A stretch of 64,000 bases of DNA from Streptomyces rapamycinicus NRRL 5491. Its GTDB lineage: Bacteria > Actinomycetota > Actinomycetes > Streptomycetales > Streptomycetaceae. A program made the translations under genes and the position numbers. This document shows positions 27,936 to 39,231 of the stretch, in pieces; positions within the stretch are counted from its first letter, which is position 1; each line of letters begins with the position of its first letter. The stretch spans positions 6,510,001 through 6,574,000 of the forward strand of contig NZ_CP085193.1 of NCBI RefSeq assembly GCF_024298965.1. The letters are read 5' to 3'. A model generated the notes under the pieces. That model searched no databases, was not told the DNA's origin, and worked only from the letters and a program-made list of their open reading frames with translations.

Positions 27936-30392
27936 TCACGCGCCCGCCACGATGACCTGGACGCCCTCCGGGACGCCGGTCACCTCCGCGTTGCGGTGGC
28001 TCAGCCGCAGGATCTCCAGCCGCGGGAAGACGGCCAGCCAGCTCAGGTCCAGGTCCGCGCCCAGGTCGTAGGCGAGCCACAGCTCGGTCAGCCGCTCGGC
28101 CACCAGGCCCTCGGTCAGCTGCTCCGGGGTGAACGCCCCGGCTATCTGGACGCAGGGGCGGCCGCCGAGCCGGCGCAGGGCCCGCAGTTCCTCCAGGTCC
28201 GACACCGGAAAGTCGAGTTCCCGCTCATCGAGATGGGCGATGATTTCCTCGGCGTAACGGTCGGTGTCATATCGTCGCCAGGCCGCCGCGAGCCGCGCCC
28301 GTACCGCCCAGGAGGCGCGGCCCCGCAGCCGGACCAGATAGTCGATCGCGCGGTCGTCGGCTATGGAGGTGGCGGTGACGGCCAGCCGATGGGCTTCCTC
28401 ATCGGATACCCCGCTGGGATCGGGCAGCATTTCCAGCACGATAGGCCCGATCCAGCCCAGCGCTCGGGCCCCTTCCAGCGAGGTCGGGCGTACCAGATCA
28501 CGGGTATAGCGATGCACCCGGGAACGCACCTCGGGGTCCAGCTCCGTCGCGTGTTCCAGACATGCGGCCGCCAGGAGTTTGCGATGGCGAGCATGGACCG
28601 GGCGGGCGTCTTTACGGGCCGCCAGCAGCCCCTCCAGGAGGTAGGCGCATTCATCGGGACGGGCGAGGGAGACGGACATTCTGATCACTTCTTCCCAGTC
28701 GTCCAGGTGCGCGTGGTCGATCAGGAAGTCAAAATCGTGCCGTTCGACGACCGCTCTCGCGCTGAGATAGTCCTGGAACGTTCGGTGCACGAAATCGACC
28801 GAACCGGGTGTGGGCTCGCGCAATAGACCGGTCCGGTTGAGCAGATGGCGGTAGATCTCCTCCGGTCCGCCCTGCCGCGCCGCGTGCGGAATGGCCGGGA
28901 TGTACTGGCCGAGCGTCTCGAGGGCGGTGGCCCGGTCCATTTCGGACCGGCCGTTGACGAGCATCCAGTGCGCCAGCTTCTGCAGCAGCTGGATCTTCGG
29001 TTCCTGGGGGAGGTCGATTCCATCCGGCGGCAGCATGGCGCGCTCGCGGTCGCGCCGTTCCAGGAGCATGGAAAGGGCCGCGTCATAGAGGGCTTTCCGG
29101 CCGCGTGGCAGATAGCCGCGGCGGTCCCGGTGCAGTGCGCACAGCAGACCGCACATCAGTGGATTGGTGGCCAGCCGCCCGAGGTCCCGGGTAATCCTTA
29201 CGGCGTCCAGCAGCGTTTCCTCGTAACCGCTGAGCCGGTCCAGATCGGCCCCGTCGGTGATGTCCTGGCGGGCGGCCGCATGCCAGCGCCGGATGAACGC
29301 GGTGACGCCCTCGCGGCTGAGCGGGGAGAGTTTCAGCTCGGTGAAGCGCTCCGAGGAGAGCCAGTTCTCCCGTACGGCGGAGGGGCGCGAGGTGACCAGC
29401 CAGACATTTCCCGGATAGCGGGTGGGGAGTTCGCGGAGCGCTTCGCGGAGCCGTTCGCGCTCGTCCTCCGGCGCCTCGTCCACGCCGTCCACGAGCAGCA
29501 GCCCGCGCCCGCGCGAGAGCACCCGTTCGGCCCAGCCCGGCGGCTGCGCGGCGGCGTGCGGATAGCGGACGGCGGACAGGAAGCCGTCCGGCTCCGGGAA
29601 GCCGTCGCGGCGGAACCGGCGCACGGGGAGCACGAACGGCACCCGCCCGCGCAGCCCCTCCAGCGGGGCCGGGAGGTCGCCGCGCGCCACGGACACCGCG
29701 AGCCGCTGCACCAGCGTGGTCTTGCCCGACCCCGCCACGCCCCACAGCAGCACCCGGGTGCGTCCCGCGAGGGCCTGCTCGGCGGGGGCGCTGGGGCCGC
29801 CGCCGTCGGTCTCGGTCTCCAGGCTGAGATATGCGGCGTCCAGCGGCCAGCTGTCGGGGGAGTGGGTCAGATCGATGCCGTAGATCGTCAGGTGGTCGTG
29901 GGCGGCGACGATGTCCTGGGCGTAGCGCTCCTCGAACGCGGCGTCCTCGGCGGCCGCGACGAAGGGGGAGCGGATGGTGAGGAAGCGCAGGATGTGCGCG
30001 CAGACGGCCTCGCGCAGCGCGGCGTGCGTATGGGCGTCGGCCGGGGCCAGTTCCTCGTCGGCGTCGGGGGCGGCGACGGCGAGGTGACGGGCGAAGGCCT
30101 CGGAGCCGAGGCGGACGGCCCGCAGGTCGTCCAGGTCGACGGTGCCGAGGGAGTGGAGGGTGCGGGCGAGCGCGTCGGTCAGCTGGGGGCGCACCCGATC
30201 GGTGATCTCTTCGTCGATCTCCTTCGCGACGTCTTCGAGGAGCGCGGAGGCGATCCGGGGCAGGTCCCGCTCGGTGAGCGTGCGGTGGTCGCCCTGGAAG
30301 GCGACGAGGGAGGCGATGCGGACGGGCCGGTCCACCGGCCCGTCGGCGACGAAGAGTTCCTGGACCAGTGTGGCTATGGCTGCGGGATCCAT
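27936..30392 (-). CDS. NACHT-domain STAND NTPase, NLR-like
   Basis: The 818-residue protein starts at ATG 30392 (MDPAAIATLVQELFV). Residues 1-205 are a helical N-terminal domain. The NACHT core follows: Walker A GVAGSGKTT (218-226), Walker B LLLVDGVDEAPEDERERL (from 298), sensor VWLVTSRPSA, and the winged-helix part ending VDFVHRTFQDYLSARAVV. The C-terminal ~250 residues are helical repeats, finishing with leucine-rich LTELWLAYDLGADLDLSWL. No separate effector domain (nuclease, TIR, protease) is recognised. Bacterial NACHT proteins (bNACHT, Avs-like) can give phage resistance; here defence is an inference from architecture and setting. Confidence 0.85.
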   Translation of the reverse strand: MDPAAIATLVQELFVADGPVDRPVRIASLVAFQGDHRTLTERDLPRIASALLEDVAKEIDEEITDRVRPQLTDALARTLHSLGTVDLDDLRAVRLGSEAFARHLAVAAPDADEELAPADAHTHAALREAVCAHILRFLTIRSPFVAAAEDAAFEERYAQDIVAAHDHLTIYGIDLTHSPDSWPLDAAYLSLETETDGGGPSAPAEQALAGRTRVLLWGVAGSGKTTLVQRLAVSVARGDLPAPLEGLRGRVPFVLPVRRFRRDGFPEPDGFLSAVRYPHAAAQPPGWAERVLSRGRGLLLVDGVDEAPEDERERLREALRELPTRYPGNVWLVTSRPSAVRENWLSSERFTELKLSPLSREGVTAFIRRWHAAARQDITDGADLDRLSGYEETLLDAVRITRDLGRLATNPLMCGLLCALHRDRRGYLPRGRKALYDAALSMLLERRDRERAMLPPDGIDLPQEPKIQLLQKLAHWMLVNGRSEMDRATALETLGQYIPAIPHAARQGGPEEIYRHLLNRTGLLREPTPGSVDFVHRTFQDYLSARAVVERHDFDFLIDHAHLDDWEEVIRMSVSLARPDECAYLLEGLLAARKDARPVHARHRKLLAAACLEHATELDPEVRSRVHRYTRDLVRPTSLEGARALGWIGPIVLEMLPDPSGVSDEEAHRLAVTATSIADDRAIDYLVRLRGRASWAVRARLAAAWRRYDTDRYAEEIIAHLDERELDFPVSDLEELRALRRLGGRPCVQIAGAFTPEQLTEGLVAERLTELWLAYDLGADLDLSWLAVFPRLEILRLSHRNAEVTGVPEGVQVIVAGA

Positions 30393-30624
30393 GAGGCCCC
30401 GTCCCCCCGGTGACTGTTGTTCGCCGTTCAGAAGCCACCAGGGTAGGCACGGTCGGTGCCGGATGGGTGAGGGTTCGGCGTGGGTTCCGGGGGCGGCCGG
30501 TGGCACGGGGCGGGGCGCCGGGCGGTGGTTGCGGTGCGTTGCCGGGCGCGGGGGCGCGTGTGGGGTGTGCCTGCTGTGCGTGGTGGGTGCCGGGGGCGGG
30601 GCCTCCGGTGCGGCGCCCTGGACC

Positions 30625-30687
30625 GCATATTTACGGCGCCGGTACCCGGGGGCGTGCGCTGGCCGGAGATTGGCGCCACAAATATGC
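30625..30687. promoter_or_regulatory. Inverted repeat in the NACHT upstream region
   Basis: Arms GCATATTTACGGCGCC (30625-30640) and GGCGCCACAAATATGC (30672-30687) are complementary in 14 of 16 bases, with a 31-bp spacer. The arms are the most AT-rich sequence in the 401-bp gap 30393-30793, which shows no other gene. It is a candidate operator or promoter region for the NACHT gene. Confidence 0.5.
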
Positions 30688-30793
30688 GACAGCGTCCAGG
30701 ACACCACCCCTCCGACCCCACCCCCTCCCGCCGCGTCGGCGACTCCCCACCGGTGGTCCCGGGGCCCTGCCGGTTCTGGCCCGGCCCGGTGAC

Positions 30794-31069
30794 CTACCGG
30801 CCCGGTTCCTCCTCCAAGAAGAGCTCGTCCAACAACTCGTCTGCCCGGGAGACGGCGAACGCGCGGTCGAGCCAGTGCCTCAGGGTGTCGCGGTAGGCGC
30901 ATTCGCTGATACGGCGGTGTGCCTCGGGCCGGACGGCGATCCCCCGATGTTCGAGGATGCGCAGGACCCCCTCGGCAAGCCCTGCCGCCTCCCCGTGGGC
31001 CTGGCCCTTGAGGAAGGTCTGCTCGATGAGGGTTCCCCGGCCGGGGAAATAGCTACCTACTACGGCCAT
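30794..31069 (-). pseudogene. Truncated C-terminal copy of the neighbouring PD-(D/E)XK protein
   Basis: The 91-residue frame starts MAVVGSYFPGRGTLIEQTF and matches the last ~85 residues of the complete gene at 31075-31980 (VGTYFPGRGTLIEETF, then LDRWLDRA, then ADEL). All the nuclease core is missing. It lies only 5 bp downstream of the intact gene on the same strand, so it appears to be what remains of a tandem duplication. It may still be translated as a small C-terminal protein. Confidence 0.8.
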
Positions 31070-31074
31070 GGTCG

Positions 31075-31980
31075 TCAGTCGTCCTCGGCGAAGAGCTCAT
31101 CGGCCGTGGAGACGGTGACGGCCCGGTCGAGCCAGCGGTCCAGGGTGTCGAGGTCGGTGCAGTTGGTGATGCGGTCGCGGGTCTCTGCCAGGGTGGAGAT
31201 GCCCCGCTTATCCAGGACACGCAGTACGCCCTGGGCTCGGCCCCGGGCTTCGCCCTCTGCCGCCCCCTCTGCCTTCCCCTTGAGGAAGGTCTCCTCGATC
31301 AGGGTGCCGCGGCCGGGGAAGTAGGTACCCACACTCATCTCGTTCCTCCAGATGATTCCCGCTGGGGTAGTACTCCCCAGATCGATTTCCAGCAATTCCG
31401 AGTAGTAGCTGACGGACTCAGGGTCGGCGGTTCCCATGGCGCGAGCCAGGGCCTTCAGTATGGCCGGGGCATCCTGGTGGCTGCCATGCGTCAAGGCCGA
31501 GAAGGTCGCCAGGGTCAGGTCCTGGGCGGCCTCGTCCGGGTCGAGGATCACCGGGACGTTTCCGGGGCCCAGGACCAGTGGGTGTACGGACAGCGCTGTC
31601 CAGTCGTCCACGCCAACCCGGAAGGGGCCGGTCGCCCACTCGGCGGTTCTCTTGTCCTGGCAGACCACGAGCAGCAGAGCCGGTTGCTTGTATTTCGCCG
31701 CCAGATACGGCACGTAGTACGCCCAGTTGACTGCCTTGTCGGGGTCGCAGCGCCCTTGGGCCTCGATCGCCAGGAGGAAGTCGCCGCCGTCGAACGGCTT
31801 GACGCGCAGCACGCTGTCCACGCGACGTTCCAGCGGCCGTATCTCGGTGGCATCCGGGGTGAGCACTTCAACCGCCGCTTTCTCGGGCGGCGACAGGTCC
31901 AGGATGCGGAACACCGGAGCGAGTAACTCTGGGCGTTCTTGAAAGATGCGATGTGCGGCCTCGTGCCGCGAACTGACCAT
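31075..31980 (-). CDS. PD-(D/E)XK nuclease-family protein (Rpn/transposase-associated type)
   Basis: This 301-residue protein has a minimal PD-(D/E)XK core: Asp55 in RRVDSVLRV and E-A-Q (Glu73, Gln75) in LLAIEAQGRC, followed by NWAYYVPYLAAKY and LLLVVCQD. The C-terminal quarter is a charged coiled region (KGKAEGAAEGEARG) that is duplicated next door. Similar proteins are multi-copy in Streptomyces and related to recombination-promoting nucleases. Leu19 is encoded by TTA (31924-31926), implying bldA dependence or foreign origin. Confidence 0.75.
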   Translation of the reverse strand: MVSSRHEAAHRIFQERPELLAPVFRILDLSPPEKAAVEVLTPDATEIRPLERRVDSVLRVKPFDGGDFLLAIEAQGRCDPDKAVNWAYYVPYLAAKYKQPALLLVVCQDKRTAEWATGPFRVGVDDWTALSVHPLVLGPGNVPVILDPDEAAQDLTLATFSALTHGSHQDAPAILKALARAMGTADPESVSYYSELLEIDLGSTTPAGIIWRNEMSVGTYFPGRGTLIEETFLKGKAEGAAEGEARGRAQGVLRVLDKRGISTLAETRDRITNCTDLDTLDRWLDRAVTVSTADELFAEDD

Positions 31981-33527: not shown

Positions 33528-34595
33528 TCAGCGGCGGGCTTCGAGCTTCATGTCGCCGCGAGTCTGTATGCGGGCGAAGTCGCTGGTGAGCAGGTTGTGC
33601 GGGATGCCGAGTCCGATCGCGCTCGCCTCGTCCAGGCGGGCCAGTTGGGAGGCGGTGAAGTCGACCTCCAGGGCGCCCAGATTGTCCTCCAGCTGCGTGA
33701 TGGTGCGCGCGCCGATGATGGGTGCCGTCACGCCCGGATTCTGCAGGGTCCAGGCCAGTCCGACCTGGCCGGGGGTGCGACCCAGCTCCGTCGCGACCTC
33801 TTTCACGACATCAGCGATGGTGAGGTTGTGTTCGGAGAGGTTGCCCAAGGTGAGGTTGTGGCCCTTGCGCGGGGGACCGCCATCGGATCCGACGGTGGTC
33901 GCGGTCAGGTCGTCGCGGCTGTACTTGCCGGTGAGCACCCCGCCGCCCAGCGGTGAGTACGGCATTACCCCCAGCCCCATCTCACGTGCCATGGGGATCA
34001 GGTCACGTTCCCCGGTGCGCTGGATCAGGCTGTACTCGATTTGCAGCGCGACCAGCGGCGACCAGCCGCGCAGGTCGGCGATCGCCTGCATGCGCGACAC
34101 CTGCCAGGCCGGAACGTTGGACATCGCCACGTGCAAGACCTTGCCCTGCCGGACCAGATCGTCCATGCCGCGCAGGATCTCCTCGACCGGCGTCGTGAAA
34201 TCCCACACGTGCAGGTAGAGCAGATCGAGGTAGTCCGTGTTCAGCCGTCGCAGGCTGGTTTCCACCGACCTGAACATGTTCTTGCGGTGCGGGCCCCCGG
34301 AATTCGGATCGCCGGGCCGGCGCAGCGTCGAGTACTTCGTTGCCAGCACCAGGCTTTCGCGGTTGTCGCGGGTGAATTCGCCCAGCATGCGCTCGGAGGT
34401 GCCATCGGTATAGGTGTCGGCGGTGTCGATGAAGTTGCCGCCGCGCTCGACGTAGCTGTCGAACAGCTTGCGCGCCTCGTCCTGCTCTGCGCCCCAGCCC
34501 CAATCGGTGCCGAAGGTCGCCGCGCCCAGCGCCAGCGGTGAGACCCGCAGCCCGGAACGGCCGAGTAGTCGGTAGGTGTCGAGGGTGAGCGACAT
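33528..34595 (-). CDS. Aldo/keto reductase
   Basis: This 355-residue TIM-barrel NADPH oxidoreductase has FIDTADTYTDGTSERMLGEF (catalytic Asp and Tyr), LVLATKYST with the catalytic Lys, and a His in LDLLYLHVWD. The NADPH site near SPLGGGVLTGKY and PIIGARTITQLEDNL is present. A good AGGAGG precedes ATG 34595. It is divergent from the macrolide glycosyltransferase across ~200 bp and heads a two-gene unit with the VOC protein. The substrate is unknown. Confidence 0.88.
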   Translation of the reverse strand: MSLTLDTYRLLGRSGLRVSPLALGAATFGTDWGWGAEQDEARKLFDSYVERGGNFIDTADTYTDGTSERMLGEFTRDNRESLVLATKYSTLRRPGDPNSGGPHRKNMFRSVETSLRRLNTDYLDLLYLHVWDFTTPVEEILRGMDDLVRQGKVLHVAMSNVPAWQVSRMQAIADLRGWSPLVALQIEYSLIQRTGERDLIPMAREMGLGVMPYSPLGGGVLTGKYSRDDLTATTVGSDGGPPRKGHNLTLGNLSEHNLTIADVVKEVATELGRTPGQVGLAWTLQNPGVTAPIIGARTITQLEDNLGALEVDFTASQLARLDEASAIGLGIPHNLLTSDFARIQTRGDMKLEARR

Positions 34596-34711
34596 CGTGT
34601 CCTCCTGTGCTTATGATCCGCTGCCGAAAACGAGTCTGTGACCGCCGGGAGCCGGAGATAAGGGAAGGAAGTTCCTGGGAACGCCAGTCCTACCCTGGCT
34701 GTGGGGCCCGG

Positions 34712-34765
34712 CGCTGAGCGGGCACTTACCGCTTGCCGAGGCCGGAAAAATCGGGAGGCGGACCG
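34712..34765 (+). repeat. Copy 2 of the ~53-bp promoter-like direct repeat
   Basis: It matches 32851-32903 in the same orientation with a few substitutions and one indel in the A-tract (GGAAAAATCGGGAGGCGG). It lies directly upstream of the leader of the macrolide glycosyltransferase, where an A-rich tract just ahead of a -35 would suit a WhiB7/WblC-type promoter. Confidence 0.85.
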
Positions 34766-34779
34766 GTCTCCGACCGGGG

Positions 34780-34785
34780 TACCGT
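34780..34785 (+). promoter_or_regulatory. Candidate -10 of the glycosyltransferase leader transcript
   Basis: TACCGT (34780-34785) is 8 bp before the leader ATG at 34793, so transcription would begin at or next to the ATG, giving a leaderless leader peptide. No convincing TTGAC-like -35 is visible; GGAGGCG lies at the right distance after an A-tract. Confidence 0.4.
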
Positions 34786-34792
34786 TGCCCGC

Positions 34793-34822
34793 ATGGACTC
34801 GTTTCTTCAGATCTACGGCTGA
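34793..34822 (+). CDS. Nine-residue leader peptide of the macrolide glycosyltransferase
   Basis: The frame reads M-D-S-F-L-Q-I-Y-G and stops with TGA (34820-34822). Codons 2-8 lie in the first arm of a long inverted repeat whose second arm covers the start region of the next gene. Size, place and overlap with the RNA stem are those of erm- and cat-type regulatory leader peptides, where drug-dependent ribosome stalling releases the downstream start. The hydrophobic F-L-x-I-Y core is a possible stalling segment. No sequence identity with a known leader is claimed. Confidence 0.65.
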   Translation: MDSFLQIYG

Positions 34823-34904
34823 CACGCCGCTCACTTCGGCGCACCGGTGACCACGCCCGTGCGCTGAGCCGTCGTGTCCATCTCGCCCTAGATCTGAAAC
34901 GAGT
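34797..34904 (+). promoter_or_regulatory. Candidate translational attenuator of the macrolide glycosyltransferase
   Basis: Arm 1 (34797-34815) and arm 4 (34889-34904) pair over 16 bp: ACTCGTTT with AAACGAGT and CAGATCTA with TAGATCTG, interrupted by a 3-nt bulge on the leader side. Arm 4 ends nine bases before ATG 34913 and overlaps the SD-like GAGTGATC (34901-34908). Between them are alternative stems, including CGCCG/CGGCG (34825-34829, 34837-34841) and a 9-bp stem 34836-34844/34859-34867. A ribosome stalled on the leader would occupy arm 1 and free the start site. Confidence 0.7.
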
Positions 34905-34912
34905 GATCTCTC

Positions 34913-36097
34913 ATGTCACGTCCGTCCCGTCGCCGTGGCCATATCGCCATGGTCGGCATCCCCGCCATCAGCCACACCCTGCCCAGCCTCGAGATCATCC
35001 GTGAACTCGTGGCGCGCGGGCACCGGGTGACGTACGCCAACGACCCCTATATGGCGGACGTCATCAAGCCGACCGGCGCCGAGTTCGTGCCGTTCGAGTC
35101 CACCCTGCCGGTCGCCGACAACGACTGGCCGGAGGACCCGATCGCCGCGATGACCCTGTTCCTGGACGACGCCGTCCACGTCCTGCCGCAACTCCGCGCC
35201 GTGTACGACCGCGACCCGGCCGATGTGTACCTCTACGACATCGGCGCGTACCCCGCCCGGGTGCTCGCCGAGACGCAGGGGCGCCCGCTGGTCCAGCTGT
35301 CGCCGACGATCGTGGGCTGGGAGGGTTACCACGACGAGGTCGGGGCGCAGATCATGAGCCTTCCCGGTGCGGACGTGTACCAGGAGAAGTTCGCGACGTG
35401 GCTCGTGGAGTCCGGCGCCGCCACCACGGACCCGAACGCCTTCTCCGGCCTGCCGCCGCGCTGTGTCGCGCTCATCCCCCGTGCGATGCAGCCGAACGCC
35501 GACCGGGTGAACACCGAGGTGGTGACGTTCGTCGGACCGTGTCTCGGGGACCGTGCCGACCAGGGCGGCTGGGAACGTCCCGCCGGTGCGGAGAACGTGC
35601 TGCTGGTCTCGCTGGGCTCGGCTTACACCCGGCAGGCCGCCTTCTACCGCGAGTGCGTCGCGGCCTTCGGGGAGCTGCCCGGGTGGCATGTGGTGCTGCA
35701 GATCGGCAAGTACGTCGACCCGGGTGAGCTGGGGCAGATCCCGGCGAACGTCGAGGTCCACAACTGGGTGCCGCAGCTGGCGATCCTGGAGCGGGCCGAC
35801 GCGTTCATCACCCACGCGGGGATGGGCGGCAGCAACGAGGGGCTGTACACCGGCTGTCCGATGATCGCCGTCCCGCAGGGCGCCGAACAGGCCATGAACG
35901 CCGACCGGCTCGTCGAACTGGGCGTGGCCCGCCGCTTCGACACGGCCGACGCCACCGCCGGGGCCCTGCGCGCCGCGCTGCTCGAGCTCACCACGGACCC
36001 GGAGGTCGCGCGCACCTCGGCGCGGCTGCGGGCCGAGGTGCGGGCCGAGGGCGGCACCGGGCGGGCGGCCGATCTGATCGAGGACGCGCTGCGGTGA
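34913..36097 (+). CDS. mgt: Macrolide glycosyltransferase of the OleD/Mgt family
   Basis: This 394-residue GT-B enzyme closely resembles OleD along its length: SLEIIRELVARGHRVTYA, LYDIGAYPARVLAETQG, RPAGAENVLLVSLGSAYTR, FYRECVAAFGELPGWHVVLQ, EVHNWVPQLAILERADAFIT, and THAGMGGSNEGLYTGCPMIA. Likely catalytic residues are His21 and Asp109, though the usual G-H is S-H here. Such enzymes inactivate macrolides by UDP-glucose-dependent glucosylation of the desosamine 2'-OH. No macrolide biosynthesis genes are nearby, so it is likely an acquired or intrinsic resistance gene controlled by the leader upstream. Confidence 0.92.
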   Translation: MSRPSRRRGHIAMVGIPAISHTLPSLEIIRELVARGHRVTYANDPYMADVIKPTGAEFVPFESTLPVADNDWPEDPIAAMTLFLDDAVHVLPQLRAVYDRDPADVYLYDIGAYPARVLAETQGRPLVQLSPTIVGWEGYHDEVGAQIMSLPGADVYQEKFATWLVESGAATTDPNAFSGLPPRCVALIPRAMQPNADRVNTEVVTFVGPCLGDRADQGGWERPAGAENVLLVSLGSAYTRQAAFYRECVAAFGELPGWHVVLQIGKYVDPGELGQIPANVEVHNWVPQLAILERADAFITHAGMGGSNEGLYTGCPMIAVPQGAEQAMNADRLVELGVARRFDTADATAGALRAALLELTTDPEVARTSARLRAEVRAEGGTGRAADLIEDALR

Positions 36098-36152: not shown

Positions 36153-37976
36153 TTACTTCTTCACCGTGATGCGGTCCGCCTTCGGCGGGTCCAGGGGTGA
36201 GGACTGCGACGAGTGCGCGCCCAGGTAGGCCGTGAACGCGTCCAGGTCGGAGGCGCCGACGAGCTTGTTCTTGCCGTCCTTGAAGGCGGGGAAGCCGTCG
36301 CCGCCGCCCGCGATGAACTCGTTCAGCGCGACGCGGTAGGTCTTGGCGGGGTCGATCGCCTCACCGTTCAGCTTCACCGAGTCCGTGACGACGCGGTCCT
36401 TGCCGGACTTGGTCAGGTCCAGGGTGTAGGTGAGGCCCTTGGAGACCTGGAGGATCCGCGGGGACGCCTCGTTGGCGCCGCTGACCTGCTGCTGGAGCGC
36501 GGTGATGAGCTGGGAGCCGGTCAGGTCGATGACGTTCATCATGTTGGTGAACGGCTGGACCGTGAACGCCTCGCCGTAGGTCACCACCCCGTCCCCCTCG
36601 CTGCCCGACGCCTTGAAGGCGAGGTCGGAGCGGATGCCGCCGGGGTTCATGAAGGCGATCTGGGCGTCGCCCTTGTCGGACGGGGAGAGCGCTTCGAGCT
36701 GGCCGTCGGCGATGACGTCGCCCAGGGGCGTCTCGTAGGCGGTGGAGCCGCGGCCGTTGACGTCGGCGGAGATATAGCCGACCGGCTTGCCGGCCACCGG
36801 GGCGGCCAGCTTGTTCCAGCGCCCGATGAGCGAGGTCATGTCGGGGGCCTTGGGCTGTTCACGGTCCACGACGTGGTTCGCCGCGTGGGCGCCCTTCACG
36901 CTCGTCCGCACGATGTCGCCGGTGCGGCGGTCGTAGGTGAGCGTGGTGTCGGTGTAGAGACGGCCGAACGAGGCCGCGGAGGTCACCGTGCGCGGGGTGC
37001 CGGACGGGTCCGGGACGGTGCAGGTGTACGCCTGGTGGGTGTGGCCGGTGACCAGGGCGTCGACCTTGGGCGTGATGTTCTTGGCGATGTCGACGATGGG
37101 GCCGGAGATGCCCTTGCCCGCACCGCCGTTGTCGCAGTCGTAGTTGTACGAGGGGGAGGCGGGCAGCCCGCCCTCGTGGATGAGCGCGACGATCGACTTC
37201 ACGCCCTTGCGCTGCAGCTCCTTGGCGTACTTGTTGATCGTCTCGACCTCGTCGTGGAACTTCAGGCCCTTGACGCCCTCGGCGGTGACGATGTCCGGGG
37301 TGCCCTCTAGGGTGACCCCGATGAAGCCGATCTTCACGCCCTTGTGCTTCCACACCGTGTAGGGCTTGAGGATGGGCTTGCCGGTCTCCTCGTCGGTGAC
37401 GTTCGCGGCGAGGTAGGGGAAGTCGGCGCCCGGGAAGGTCTTGCCCTTCTCGTAGCAGCCCTCCTTGGGGTGGCAGCCGCCGTTCTGGATCCGGCTCAGC
37501 TCGGCGCGGCCCTCGTCGAATTCATGGTTGCCGACGGAGGTGACGTCGAGGTCCAGCTTGTTGAGCGCCTCGACGGTCGGCTCGTCGTGGAAGAGCCCGG
37601 AGAGCAGCGGGCTGGCCCCGATCATGTCGCCACCGGCGGCGGTGACCGAGTACTCGTGACCCTTACGGGCGTTACGGAGAGAGGTGGCGAGGTATTCGGC
37701 GCCACCCGCCGGAATGGTCTTGGTGGTGCCGTCCGCCTCGGTCTCGGTGACGGTGCCCGAGGAGCCCTGCGGGGGCTCCAGGTTTCCGTGCAGATCGTTG
37801 AAGGACAGCAGCTGCACGTCGACGGTGCGCCCCGGCCGGTGCTTGTCCGAGGCGGCGGCGCCGGTGTCCGCACCCGCCGGGCCCACGGCGGTCAGCACCC
37901 CGGCCGCGGCGGCCAGCACCGCGAATCCGGTGGCCAACCGGAGCCCCGCCCCGCGCCGTTGAGGTCTCGCTGGCAT
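36153..37976 (-). CDS. Secreted bifunctional metallophosphatase / 5'-nucleotidase (UshA-like)
   Basis: This 607-residue exported enzyme has a signal peptide (basic start, then FAVLAAAAGVLTAVGPAGA). The N-terminal calcineurin-like domain has LLSFNDLHGNLEPP, VGNHEFDEG and VTGHTHQAYTC metal motifs. The C-terminal nucleotidase domain has MNPGGIRSDL and NEFIAGGGDGFPAF. It would hydrolyse extracellular nucleotides to nucleosides and phosphate, which fits the phosphate-related genes downstream. A conserved neighbour of mshD in Streptomyces as I recall. Confidence 0.93.
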   Translation of the reverse strand: MPARPQRRGAGLRLATGFAVLAAAAGVLTAVGPAGADTGAAASDKHRPGRTVDVQLLSFNDLHGNLEPPQGSSGTVTETEADGTTKTIPAGGAEYLATSLRNARKGHEYSVTAAGGDMIGASPLLSGLFHDEPTVEALNKLDLDVTSVGNHEFDEGRAELSRIQNGGCHPKEGCYEKGKTFPGADFPYLAANVTDEETGKPILKPYTVWKHKGVKIGFIGVTLEGTPDIVTAEGVKGLKFHDEVETINKYAKELQRKGVKSIVALIHEGGLPASPSYNYDCDNGGAGKGISGPIVDIAKNITPKVDALVTGHTHQAYTCTVPDPSGTPRTVTSAASFGRLYTDTTLTYDRRTGDIVRTSVKGAHAANHVVDREQPKAPDMTSLIGRWNKLAAPVAGKPVGYISADVNGRGSTAYETPLGDVIADGQLEALSPSDKGDAQIAFMNPGGIRSDLAFKASGSEGDGVVTYGEAFTVQPFTNMMNVIDLTGSQLITALQQQVSGANEASPRILQVSKGLTYTLDLTKSGKDRVVTDSVKLNGEAIDPAKTYRVALNEFIAGGGDGFPAFKDGKNKLVGASDLDAFTAYLGAHSSQSSPLDPPKADRITVKK

Positions 37977-38133: not shown

Positions 38134-39231
38134 GTGGTGGTTCGTTATGTGAGCGTGCGGATGATGCAGAACGAACTCACGAAGAAGACGCCCATCCCCG
38201 CACAGGGATCCGAGCTCCCGGCGGGCTTCTTCGAGCTGGTCGATGACCTCAAGGCGATCGTCACGCAGGCGAGCGTGCGTGCTCAGCTCAAGGTCAACAC
38301 CGAGATGATCAAGATGTACTGGGAGATCGGCCGGACGATCCTTGAGCGGACAGAGCGGGAGAGGTGGGGGGCGAAGGTCCTTGAGCAGGTGGCGACGGAG
38401 TTGCGTACAGCCTTCCCGAATCAGCGGAGTTTCGGTGCGCGGAATCTCAAGTACATGCAGCAGATGGCTCGAACATGGCCCGAACCAATTGGGCAACAAG
38501 CTGTTGCCCAATTGCCCTGGGGCCACATCACCCTGCTGATGGGCCGCTGCAAGACCCGCCCTGAGCTGGACTTCTACGCTCAGGGGGCCGTGCAACAAGG
38601 GTGGTCCCGCGTCATGCTCGACCACTGGATCGACGCGCAGTTGCACCTCACCCAGGGCGCCGCGCTCAACAACTTCGACGCCACGCTCCCGGAGGACTCC
38701 GATGCCGTCAACGAGGTCGTCAAGGACCCCTACCGAGTCGACTTCACTCGGCTCTCCGGCAAGGTGGCGGAGCGCGACCTTGAGGACGCGCTGGTGCAGC
38801 AGCTCGTCCGGTTCCTCACCGAACTCGGGGTCGGCTTCGCCTTCGTCGGACGCCAGTACCCCGTCAAGGTCGGGGACGAGGAGTTCCGGATCGACCTGCT
38901 CTTCTACCACTACAAGCTGCACCGCTTCGTCGTCATCGAGCTGAAGACCGACAAGGCCCGCCCCGCCCACCTGGGCCAGCTCGGCTTCTACGTCACCGTC
39001 GTCGACGACCTGGTCCGGGACAAGGAGCGCGACGATCCGACCCTCGGGATCCTCATCGCGAAGAGCCGCGACAAGGGGACGATCGAGTACGCCCTGCGGA
39101 GCAACAACGCACCGCTCGCCGTGAGCACCTACGCCGCGCTGCCGCCCCATGTGCGGGAGCTGATGCCCAGCGCCGAGGATCTCTCCCGCATCGCCGACGA
39201 CGTCCTCGAGGAGGATGGGACAGCCGGGTGA
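38134..39231 (+). CDS. DUF1016 (YhcG-type) PD-(D/E)XK nuclease-domain protein
   Basis: The 365-residue protein has an N-terminal helical DUF1016 part (IKMYWEIGRTILERTER, RNLKYMQQMARTWPE) and a C-terminal nuclease core: Asp254 in FRIDLLFYHYK and E-L-K (Glu269, Lys271) in VVIELKTDKARP. Two adjacent GTG codons at 38134/38137 follow GAGGGG; an ATG at 38161 is an alternative. YhcG proteins are often carried in defence and mobile regions. It sits between the nucleotidase and mshD, which I recall as adjacent in S. coelicolor, so it is probably an insertion. Confidence 0.85.
   Translation: MVVRYVSVRMMQNELTKKTPIPAQGSELPAGFFELVDDLKAIVTQASVRAQLKVNTEMIKMYWEIGRTILERTERERWGAKVLEQVATELRTAFPNQRSFGARNLKYMQQMARTWPEPIGQQAVAQLPWGHITLLMGRCKTRPELDFYAQGAVQQGWSRVMLDHWIDAQLHLTQGAALNNFDATLPEDSDAVNEVVKDPYRVDFTRLSGKVAERDLEDALVQQLVRFLTELGVGFAFVGRQYPVKVGDEEFRIDLLFYHYKLHRFVVIELKTDKARPAHLGQLGFYVTVVDDLVRDKERDDPTLGILIAKSRDKGTIEYALRSNNAPLAVSTYAALPPHVRELMPSAEDLSRIADDVLEEDGTAG

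Follow-up and report, generated by a model that had tools for sequence, protein, structure and literature searches.

In Streptomyces rapamycinicus NRRL 5491, the mgt gene encoding a macrolide family glycosyltransferase lies in a stretch of 64,000 nucleotides (hereafter, the window), and is preceded by a nine-codon open reading frame (ORF), MDSFLQIYG-stop, whose codons can pair with a stretch running into the Shine-Dalgarno (SD) sequence of mgt. This locus is best read as a WblC-type promoter followed by a translational attenuator through which a macrolide induces an Mgt-type glycosyltransferase, a reading in which we have good confidence; that a leader-peptide attenuator acts on mgt, taken by itself, is very likely. 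An earlier note on this DNA had described the nine-codon frame at 90 bp before the glycosyltransferase gene, and both the frame (34793–34822) and the 90-nt gap from its stop codon to the mgt ATG are confirmed. The WblC-type promoter, the probable leaderless start of the mRNA, and a conserved Q-[I/L]-Y-G-stop element go beyond what that note contained.

The leader recurs in front of many mgt-like genes. The 125 mgt-like loci compared (L001, L002, and L009–L131) consist of the best 30 of a search of 392 Streptomyces genomes (L001 and L009–L037), which gave matches in 315 of them, all 34 of a second search, 60 further matches of the first search at 59 to 73% identity, and the paralog L002; most of the 57 to 59% matches of the Streptomyces search lie outside this set. 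When a short frame with Y-G or Y-E directly before the stop codon was searched for, and the start with a −10 box within 3 to 10 nt was preferred among alternative starts, 84 of the 125 loci were found to carry a leader of 7 to 10 codons that ends in Q-[I/L]-Y-G-stop or a closely similar motif; the leader stop and the mgt start are 63 to 218 nt apart. Among the 77 unique leader/anti-arm pairs left after redundancy was reduced, which also served for the pairing tests below, the end of the peptide is nearly constant (Q in 72; I in 60, L in 15, and F in 2; Y in 77; G in 76), and its codons are almost fixed as well (TAC in 77, GGC in 76, TGA as the stop codon in 76, and CTC in all 15 Leu variants). 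The N-terminal residues vary, as exemplified by MYFHQIYG, MNFLQIYG, MAFQQLYG, MDSIAQIYG, MGYHQVQIYG, and MHLPIYG. The Mgt proteins that come with a leader differ down to 59% identity.

In the 392 Streptomyces genomes, a 15-nt DNA pattern encoding QIYG-stop was matched 51 times, in 50 genomes, against a single match of the reversed-pattern control, and comparison of coordinates with those of the mgt matches placed 43 of the 51 just upstream of mgt. None of the remaining eight, all of which were inspected, has a frame of 7 to 10 codons: four represent the common C-terminus of a longer frame, which in three cases precedes a putative enoyl-CoA-hydratase-like frame, and four are seemingly unrelated, one of which (L162) has a five-codon GTG frame regarded as a chance match. 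In these genomes, searched for QIYG-stop alone, control of erm or other resistance genes by leaders of this kind was not borne out. A search across the class had matches in 23 of 394 genomes, which contributed 22 further locus records, 18 of them with a leader and two other families included; because three records repeat known loci (L177, L180, and L192), 16 of 19 carry the leader among the new ones. The class-wide leaders include MHLQIYG, MHMLQMYG, MYFRQIYE, MAFQQLYE, and VGFQIYE, as well as the off-motif MAFQQLFYQ of L191. When 83 Mgt proteins were placed on a midpoint-rooted tree, the 63 that have the leader were distributed across it, which requires 11 parsimony changes, and the paralog group (L002, L066, and L067) had none. 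From this spread we read the leader as probably old in the Mgt clade and lost several times, with reservation as to sampling, given that the tree omits L072–L131, for which only upstream DNA was fetched, and represents the 59–65% group, which has no leader, by L192 only.

The promoter anatomy in the window and in relatives fits the WblC/WhiB7 pattern. The WblC-activated promoters of Streptomyces coelicolor, where lrm is among the activated genes, are composed of GAAAWY, 3 nt, TKGMNN, 16 to 19 nt, and TANNNT, with transcription starting 7 or 8 nt past the −10 box (PMC7157823). The corresponding order in the window is AAAATC-GGG-AGGCGG-18 nt-TACCGT-7 nt-ATG, and every one of the 84 leader loci has a TANNNT box whose end lies 6 nt (23 loci) or 7 nt (61 loci) ahead of the leader start. 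In the nonredundant set of 81 promoters, A/T makes up a fraction of 0.56 to 0.95 at positions −32 to −28 relative to the −10 box, compared with a background of 0.27; a run of four A/T at −36 to −24 was present in 68 promoters (1 and 0 in control windows), and the exact GAAA in 44 (1 and 4 in controls). The commonest letters at −24 to −21 were G/T, G/T, G, and C. The position of TANNNT, together with the published start spacing, points to the leader AUG as the probable 5′ end of the mRNA, i.e., to a leaderless start. WblC probably drives the leader-mgt promoter, its binding and activation being what we infer from this anatomy.

At the window locus, the helix drawn in the earlier note, of 16 bp with a 3-nt bulge and a right arm overlapping the SD-like sequence, was borne out: positions 34797–34815, less 3 nt, are the exact reverse complement of 34889–34904, and the first four bases of GAGTGA are covered. 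Inward, the helix continues as far as 34819/34885, interrupted by one mismatch; beyond this, 34821–34829 pairs with 34870–34878 and encloses an internal hairpin. For the 143-nt leader RNA, the predicted folding energy is −60.7 kcal/mol (z −4.8), a stability equaled by 0 of 200 dinucleotide shuffles, and without the leader codons the remainder has a z of −0.9. The duplex of the leader with the downstream segment scores −27.4, compared with a shuffle mean of −18.5, and 5 of 1000 shuffles equal it. An Rfam scan of the window found no family.

Across the relatives, the anti-arm keeps its place beside the mgt start. With this start set by hand for L037, L090, and L092, a GTAG-like core of the anti-arm lies at −25 from it in 47 of 84 loci and at −20 to −33 in 70, the other 14 being unrecognized by the pattern. 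In 71 of the 77 pairs, no other part of the spacer is as good a partner for the leader as the 34 nt directly preceding the mgt start (one pair has no other segment to compare), and this segment beats mononucleotide shuffles at p < 0.05 in 72. The core helix is paired in 736 of 924 cells (80%), as against 26 to 34% in slid registers, a comparison that favors the true register because the core register was taken from the consensus; the inner extension is paired in 355 of 462 cells (77%), as against 27 to 49%. With RNAalifold, 32 sequences with long spacers scored 0.0 (no structure) and 15 of the MDS type with short spacers −38.2. Anti-arms pair with their own leaders better than permuted ones do (77 pairs, z −6.9), and the same was found when the test was restricted to the variable N-terminal codons and the SD half (z −4.8) or to one locus per peptide (n = 57, z −6.3). 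Because permutation ignores relatedness, swaps within matched pairs were added, the pairs being matched greedily for similar promoter and spacer at shared-word similarities of 0.77 to 0.10, so that many are not close. The own combination was better in 24 of the 38 swaps, worse in 4, and tied in 10 (sign test p 9e-5, Wilcoxon p 3e-5). Random synonymous recoding of the leader weakened the duplex on average in 70 of 77 loci, and the rank of the own codons was below 0.05 in 36. We conclude that the end of the peptide and the RNA pairing both appear to be under selection, the pairing being less firmly shown. By prediction and comparison, the SD sequence of mgt would be held in the helix at rest, although the mean unpaired fraction of 0.367 in the resting model of the 77 loci means that it is not fully closed. 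In many loci with spacers of 110 to 140 nt, e.g., L035, L078, and L082, a hairpin-like repeat of the form GGGGC...GCCCC was noticed by eye after the leader stop.

Table 1. Features of the leader-mgt locus (positions in the window)
Feature	Position	Strand	Basis or remark
WblC/WhiB7-type AT-rich element, AAAATC	34747–34752	+	5 of 6 positions of the published GAAAWY; AT peak in relatives
Weak −35 box, AGGCGG	34756–34761	+	3 nt past the AT-rich element, 18-nt spacer; same columns in relatives
−10 box, TACCGT	34780–34785	+	TANNNT in relatives; predicted start at or next to the leader ATG
Leader ORF, MDSFLQIYG-stop	34793–34822	+	Sequence and relatives
Left arm of the sequestering helix (leader codons 2–9)	34797–34819	+	Folding and duplex prediction
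Inner helix extension, left side (stop codon and next bases)	34821–34829	+	Folding; equivalent pairs in relatives
Internal hairpin (arms 34836–34847 and 34856–34867)	34836–34867	+	Folding
Inner helix extension, right side (CGTCGTGTC)	34870–34878	+	Folding and relatives
Right (anti-leader) arm overlapping the SD sequence	34885–34904	+	Folding and relatives
SD-like GAGTGA of mgt, 6 nt before the ATG	34901–34906	+	Sequence; similar position in relatives
mgt, macrolide family glycosyltransferase (394 residues)	34913–36097	+	Family models and OleD structures

Several results weigh against an attenuator of this kind. The Y-[G/E]-stop end and the position of the −10 box are partly selection criteria of the leader search, and 41 of the 125 loci, among them all 13 of the 59–65% group (L119–L131), are without a leader. 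Compensatory cells in the core number 6 of 924, which is within the slid controls (4 to 8) and is explained by the left side hardly varying, and double-sided changes in the inner extension number 11, fewer than in the slid registers (13 to 29). Classical covariation was accordingly discarded as evidence, the core being too invariant and nothing rising above these controls. The own anti-arm reaches a median rank of only the 26th percentile among the permuted ones, and in the 20 closest swap pairs (similarity at least 0.35) it was better in 9, worse in 4, and tied in 7 (sign test p ~0.13), so that coupled change over short times is not established. Where the earlier note had looked to conservation of the leader and compensatory changes in the arms among orthologs, the conservation, the place of the anti-arm by the SD sequence, and the full set of swaps thus speak for its proposal, and the core cells and the closest pairs do not. 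The modeled switch is also small. Forcing the leader and 10 further nt to be single-stranded raised the mean unpaired fraction of the SD sequence only to 0.436 (more open in 40 of 77 loci, less open in 12, and within 0.05 in 25), and that of the start codon went from 0.562 to 0.512; at the window locus, the SD sequence changed from 0.35 to 0.45 and the start codon became less open (0.53 to 0.38). Co-transcriptional folding may escape a static thermodynamic model, yet the modest opening of the SD sequence is still a real weakness.

As for the 41 loci that have no leader, the same strand within 1480 nt upstream carries a vat-like gene in 12, an ABC-F gene in 3, both in 1, and neither in 25; joining to an operon may therefore explain part, not all, of the losses, and a vat-like gene stands upstream in 17 leader-bearing loci as well. 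The vat-mgt pair is recurrent in its own right, a vat-like acetyltransferase gene being found in this position in 30 of 125 loci (17 with and 13 without the leader), including L028 and L035. Two proteins on which the Vat label was tested reached 243.5 and 240.7 bits, both under the cut-off of 300 of the Vat equivalog model. A small frame, MSG(T/S)VADLEEAAA, that precedes several mgt genes was dismissed as a leader candidate, since in L028 it is the C-terminus of the Vat-like protein. ABC-F-like genes were seen upstream of mgt genes without the leader in 4 of 125 loci (L109, L111, L118, and L075), and the fragment in L111 fits best to the TlrC/CarA/OleB model at 272.7 bits (cut-off 800, for a fragment). 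The possibility that these 41 loci hide another short leader with the same promoter anatomy was rejected on the basis of a scan of up to 1480 nt upstream, which gave only two hits: the start of a 212-residue frame in L119, and, in L033, a degenerate leader, MAYREIY, which has no Gly and lies at −149 behind the same promoter anatomy.

The course of events that we propose begins with transcription from the WblC-type promoter; its anatomy is observed, and both action by WblC and a start at or next to the leader AUG would follow from it. Without a drug, the leader would be finished fast, its codons would pair with the SD-ending segment, and mgt would be poorly translated. Macrolides are likely the signal, and a halt of the ribosome at the last two leader codons or the stop codon is somewhat favored over other positions. 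The parked ribosome would cover the left arm and free the SD sequence, whereupon Mgt would be made and the drug inactivated. ErmCL and ErmAL1 stall at codons 8 and 9. MsrDL stalls at its stop codon after 6 codons (PMC10314930), and the 7 to 10 codons of the present leaders put their fixed end where known macrolide leaders stall. A more tentative proposal, to which we give slightly less than an even chance, is that Q-[I/L]-Y-G-stop represents a new class of macrolide-arrest peptide, acting near or at termination on actinobacterial ribosomes that start from a 5′-terminal AUG, and that mgt sits behind a lock with two keys, of which this leader is one: the WblC promoter would respond to general ribosome stress, and the leader only to drugs that Mgt can inactivate.

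Control might instead be transcriptional, with a long leader hairpin, possibly acting through Rho or without a U-tract, that stops RNA polymerase unless a stalled ribosome prevents it, in the manner of wblC, lmrC, or msrD. Such attenuation has been reported for several ARE ABC-F genes (PMC12421871), wblC (PMC7157823), and msrD (PMC10314930). No terminator-like site was detected at 34590–35000 by a scan that depends on T-runs and would miss other kinds, and the core of the anti-arm keeps its place by the mgt start over spacers of 63 to 218 nt; both observations fit translational control, which explains the fixed anti-arm better, and we consider the transcriptional mechanism unlikely.

Somewhat less improbable, yet still doubtful, is a general sensor of translation stress, which would respond to any slow translation of the leader, whether caused by several classes of antibiotics or by a shortage of Gln or Tyr, with macrolides as one case. 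All 43 short QIYG leaders in the 392 genomes precede mgt, however, and the enzyme family is named for macrolides; a starvation-sensing leader is expected to repeat one amino acid, and no single amino acid is repeated here. The codon choice in the core (GGC, TAC, TGA, and CTC) is tighter than selection on a peptide needs, as would be expected if the conserved CAGATCTACGGCTGA were a plain RNA element that serves only as a pairing arm and whose translation is irrelevant. This is very unlikely, because all 84 loci have an in-frame start codon where transcription is expected to begin (partly by definition, the search being ORF-based), replacement-site variation (I/L/F/M and G/E) leaves the frame open, and the length is kept at 7 to 10 codons. 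Nine-codon ORFs are common, and a chance ORF with a chance helix could have been supposed from a single genome, but conservation across genera and families refutes this explanation, to which we attach practically no weight.

The product of mgt matches the macrolide family glycosyltransferase model TIGR01426 at 379.7 bits, above the cut-off of 260, and OleD chains in the Protein Data Bank (best E 4.8e-136), in keeping with the OleD-type macrolide enzyme named in the earlier note. The best model is NF033129 (macro_glyco_Mgt, macrolide-inactivating), with 517 bits under a cut-off of 700, so that macrolide inactivation is likely but not certified. The gene occurs at 95% identity in Streptomyces iranensis and Streptomyces sabulosicollis. 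It stands alone, because the aldo/keto reductase gene on one side (33528–34595) is on the opposite strand and that of a 5′-nucleotidase-like protein on the other (36153–37976) is convergent. The same 12.47-Mb single-contig genome encodes an OleD-like paralog, 53 to 54% identical (7483661–7484842; L002/L008), which has no leader of the QIYG kind upstream. Elsewhere in the window, the minus strand encodes a large NACHT protein with an N-terminal NNH1 domain (27936–30902), a type linked to phage defense, and a 301-residue protein with no Pfam match (31075–31980), whose C-terminal part is resembled, by eye, by a 91-residue frame at 30794–31069, as if by partial duplication. A DUF1016/YhcG PDDEXK nuclease is encoded at 38134–39231.

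A drug-inducible leader peptide is known for cat. Others are known for erm, msrD, mef, vga, vmlR, lmrC, and further genes. The earlier note knew of no attenuator for a stand-alone OleD-type gene, and none, nor any leader peptide for mgt- or OleD-type genes, is described in the titles and abstracts of the matches listed from the open-licence literature. We rate as new the leader family, the kind of enzyme regulated, the probable leaderless start, and the WblC-type promoter; the principle is already known. If the proposal is true, attenuation by stalling peptides extends to drug-modifying glycosyltransferases, as well as to a leader, present in many soil actinomycetes, with a candidate arrest motif not found described; drug sensing might take place on leaderless mRNA, and the way in which WblC, a general stress regulator, is combined with a drug-specific check could be explained in testable terms. 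For studies of macrolide stalling, the leaders also supply a short candidate arrest peptide in dozens of natural versions, with a free N-terminus and a fixed C-terminus.

Among known systems, the present one resembles that of ermC/ErmCL in having a roughly nine-codon leader ahead of a gene for macrolide resistance, in an SD sequence hidden by pairing, and in the predicted opening by a drug-stalled ribosome. It differs in that a glycosyltransferase rather than a 23S methylase is regulated, the leader itself is the anti-SD arm, and the leader, probably at the 5′ end of the mRNA behind a WblC-type promoter, ends in Q-[I/L]-Y-G-stop, whereas the leader motif of ermC is IFVI and its switch has four arms. 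The erm-type logic suggested in the earlier note is therefore supported by the conservation of the leader and the place of the anti-arm, while the geometry, with the leader pairing directly with the SD segment, is nearer to one helix; a four-arm (2:3) alternative pairing was not specifically searched for. One-helix translational attenuation is that of cat-86/catA, where, as proposed here, a ribosome halted on the leader itself clears the left side, albeit with another drug class and leader, and the pairing of the leader codons themselves with the SD segment is peculiar to the present case. Jenkins and Cundliffe (1991; cited in PMC8657839) reportedly described inducible macrolide and lincomycin resistance from two Streptomyces lividans genes, lrm and mgt; there mgt presumably follows lrm, in contrast with the leader directly before mgt here. 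Besides ErmCL, ErmBL and ErmDL are named macrolide leaders, and the six codons of MsrDL (MYLIFM-stop) are similarly short, but MsrDL is streptococcal, serves terminator-based control of transcription, and favors UAA, unlike the UGA found in 76 of 77 leaders here (PMC10314930). The upstream ORFs of tiaA, are5sc, lmrC, and wblC share with the switch proposed for mgt a ribosome-mediated attenuation in Streptomyces in response to ribosome-targeting drugs (PMC12421871, PMC7157823; see also PMC8546547). On those of are5sc and tiaA, lincosamides, tiamulin, and pristinamycin IIA, but not erythromycin, arrest the ribosome at the start codon (PMC12421871), and the upstream ORFs of this kind described there belong to ABC-F genes and wblC (PMC12421871, PMC7157823), whereas the leader reported here precedes a macrolide glycosyltransferase gene.

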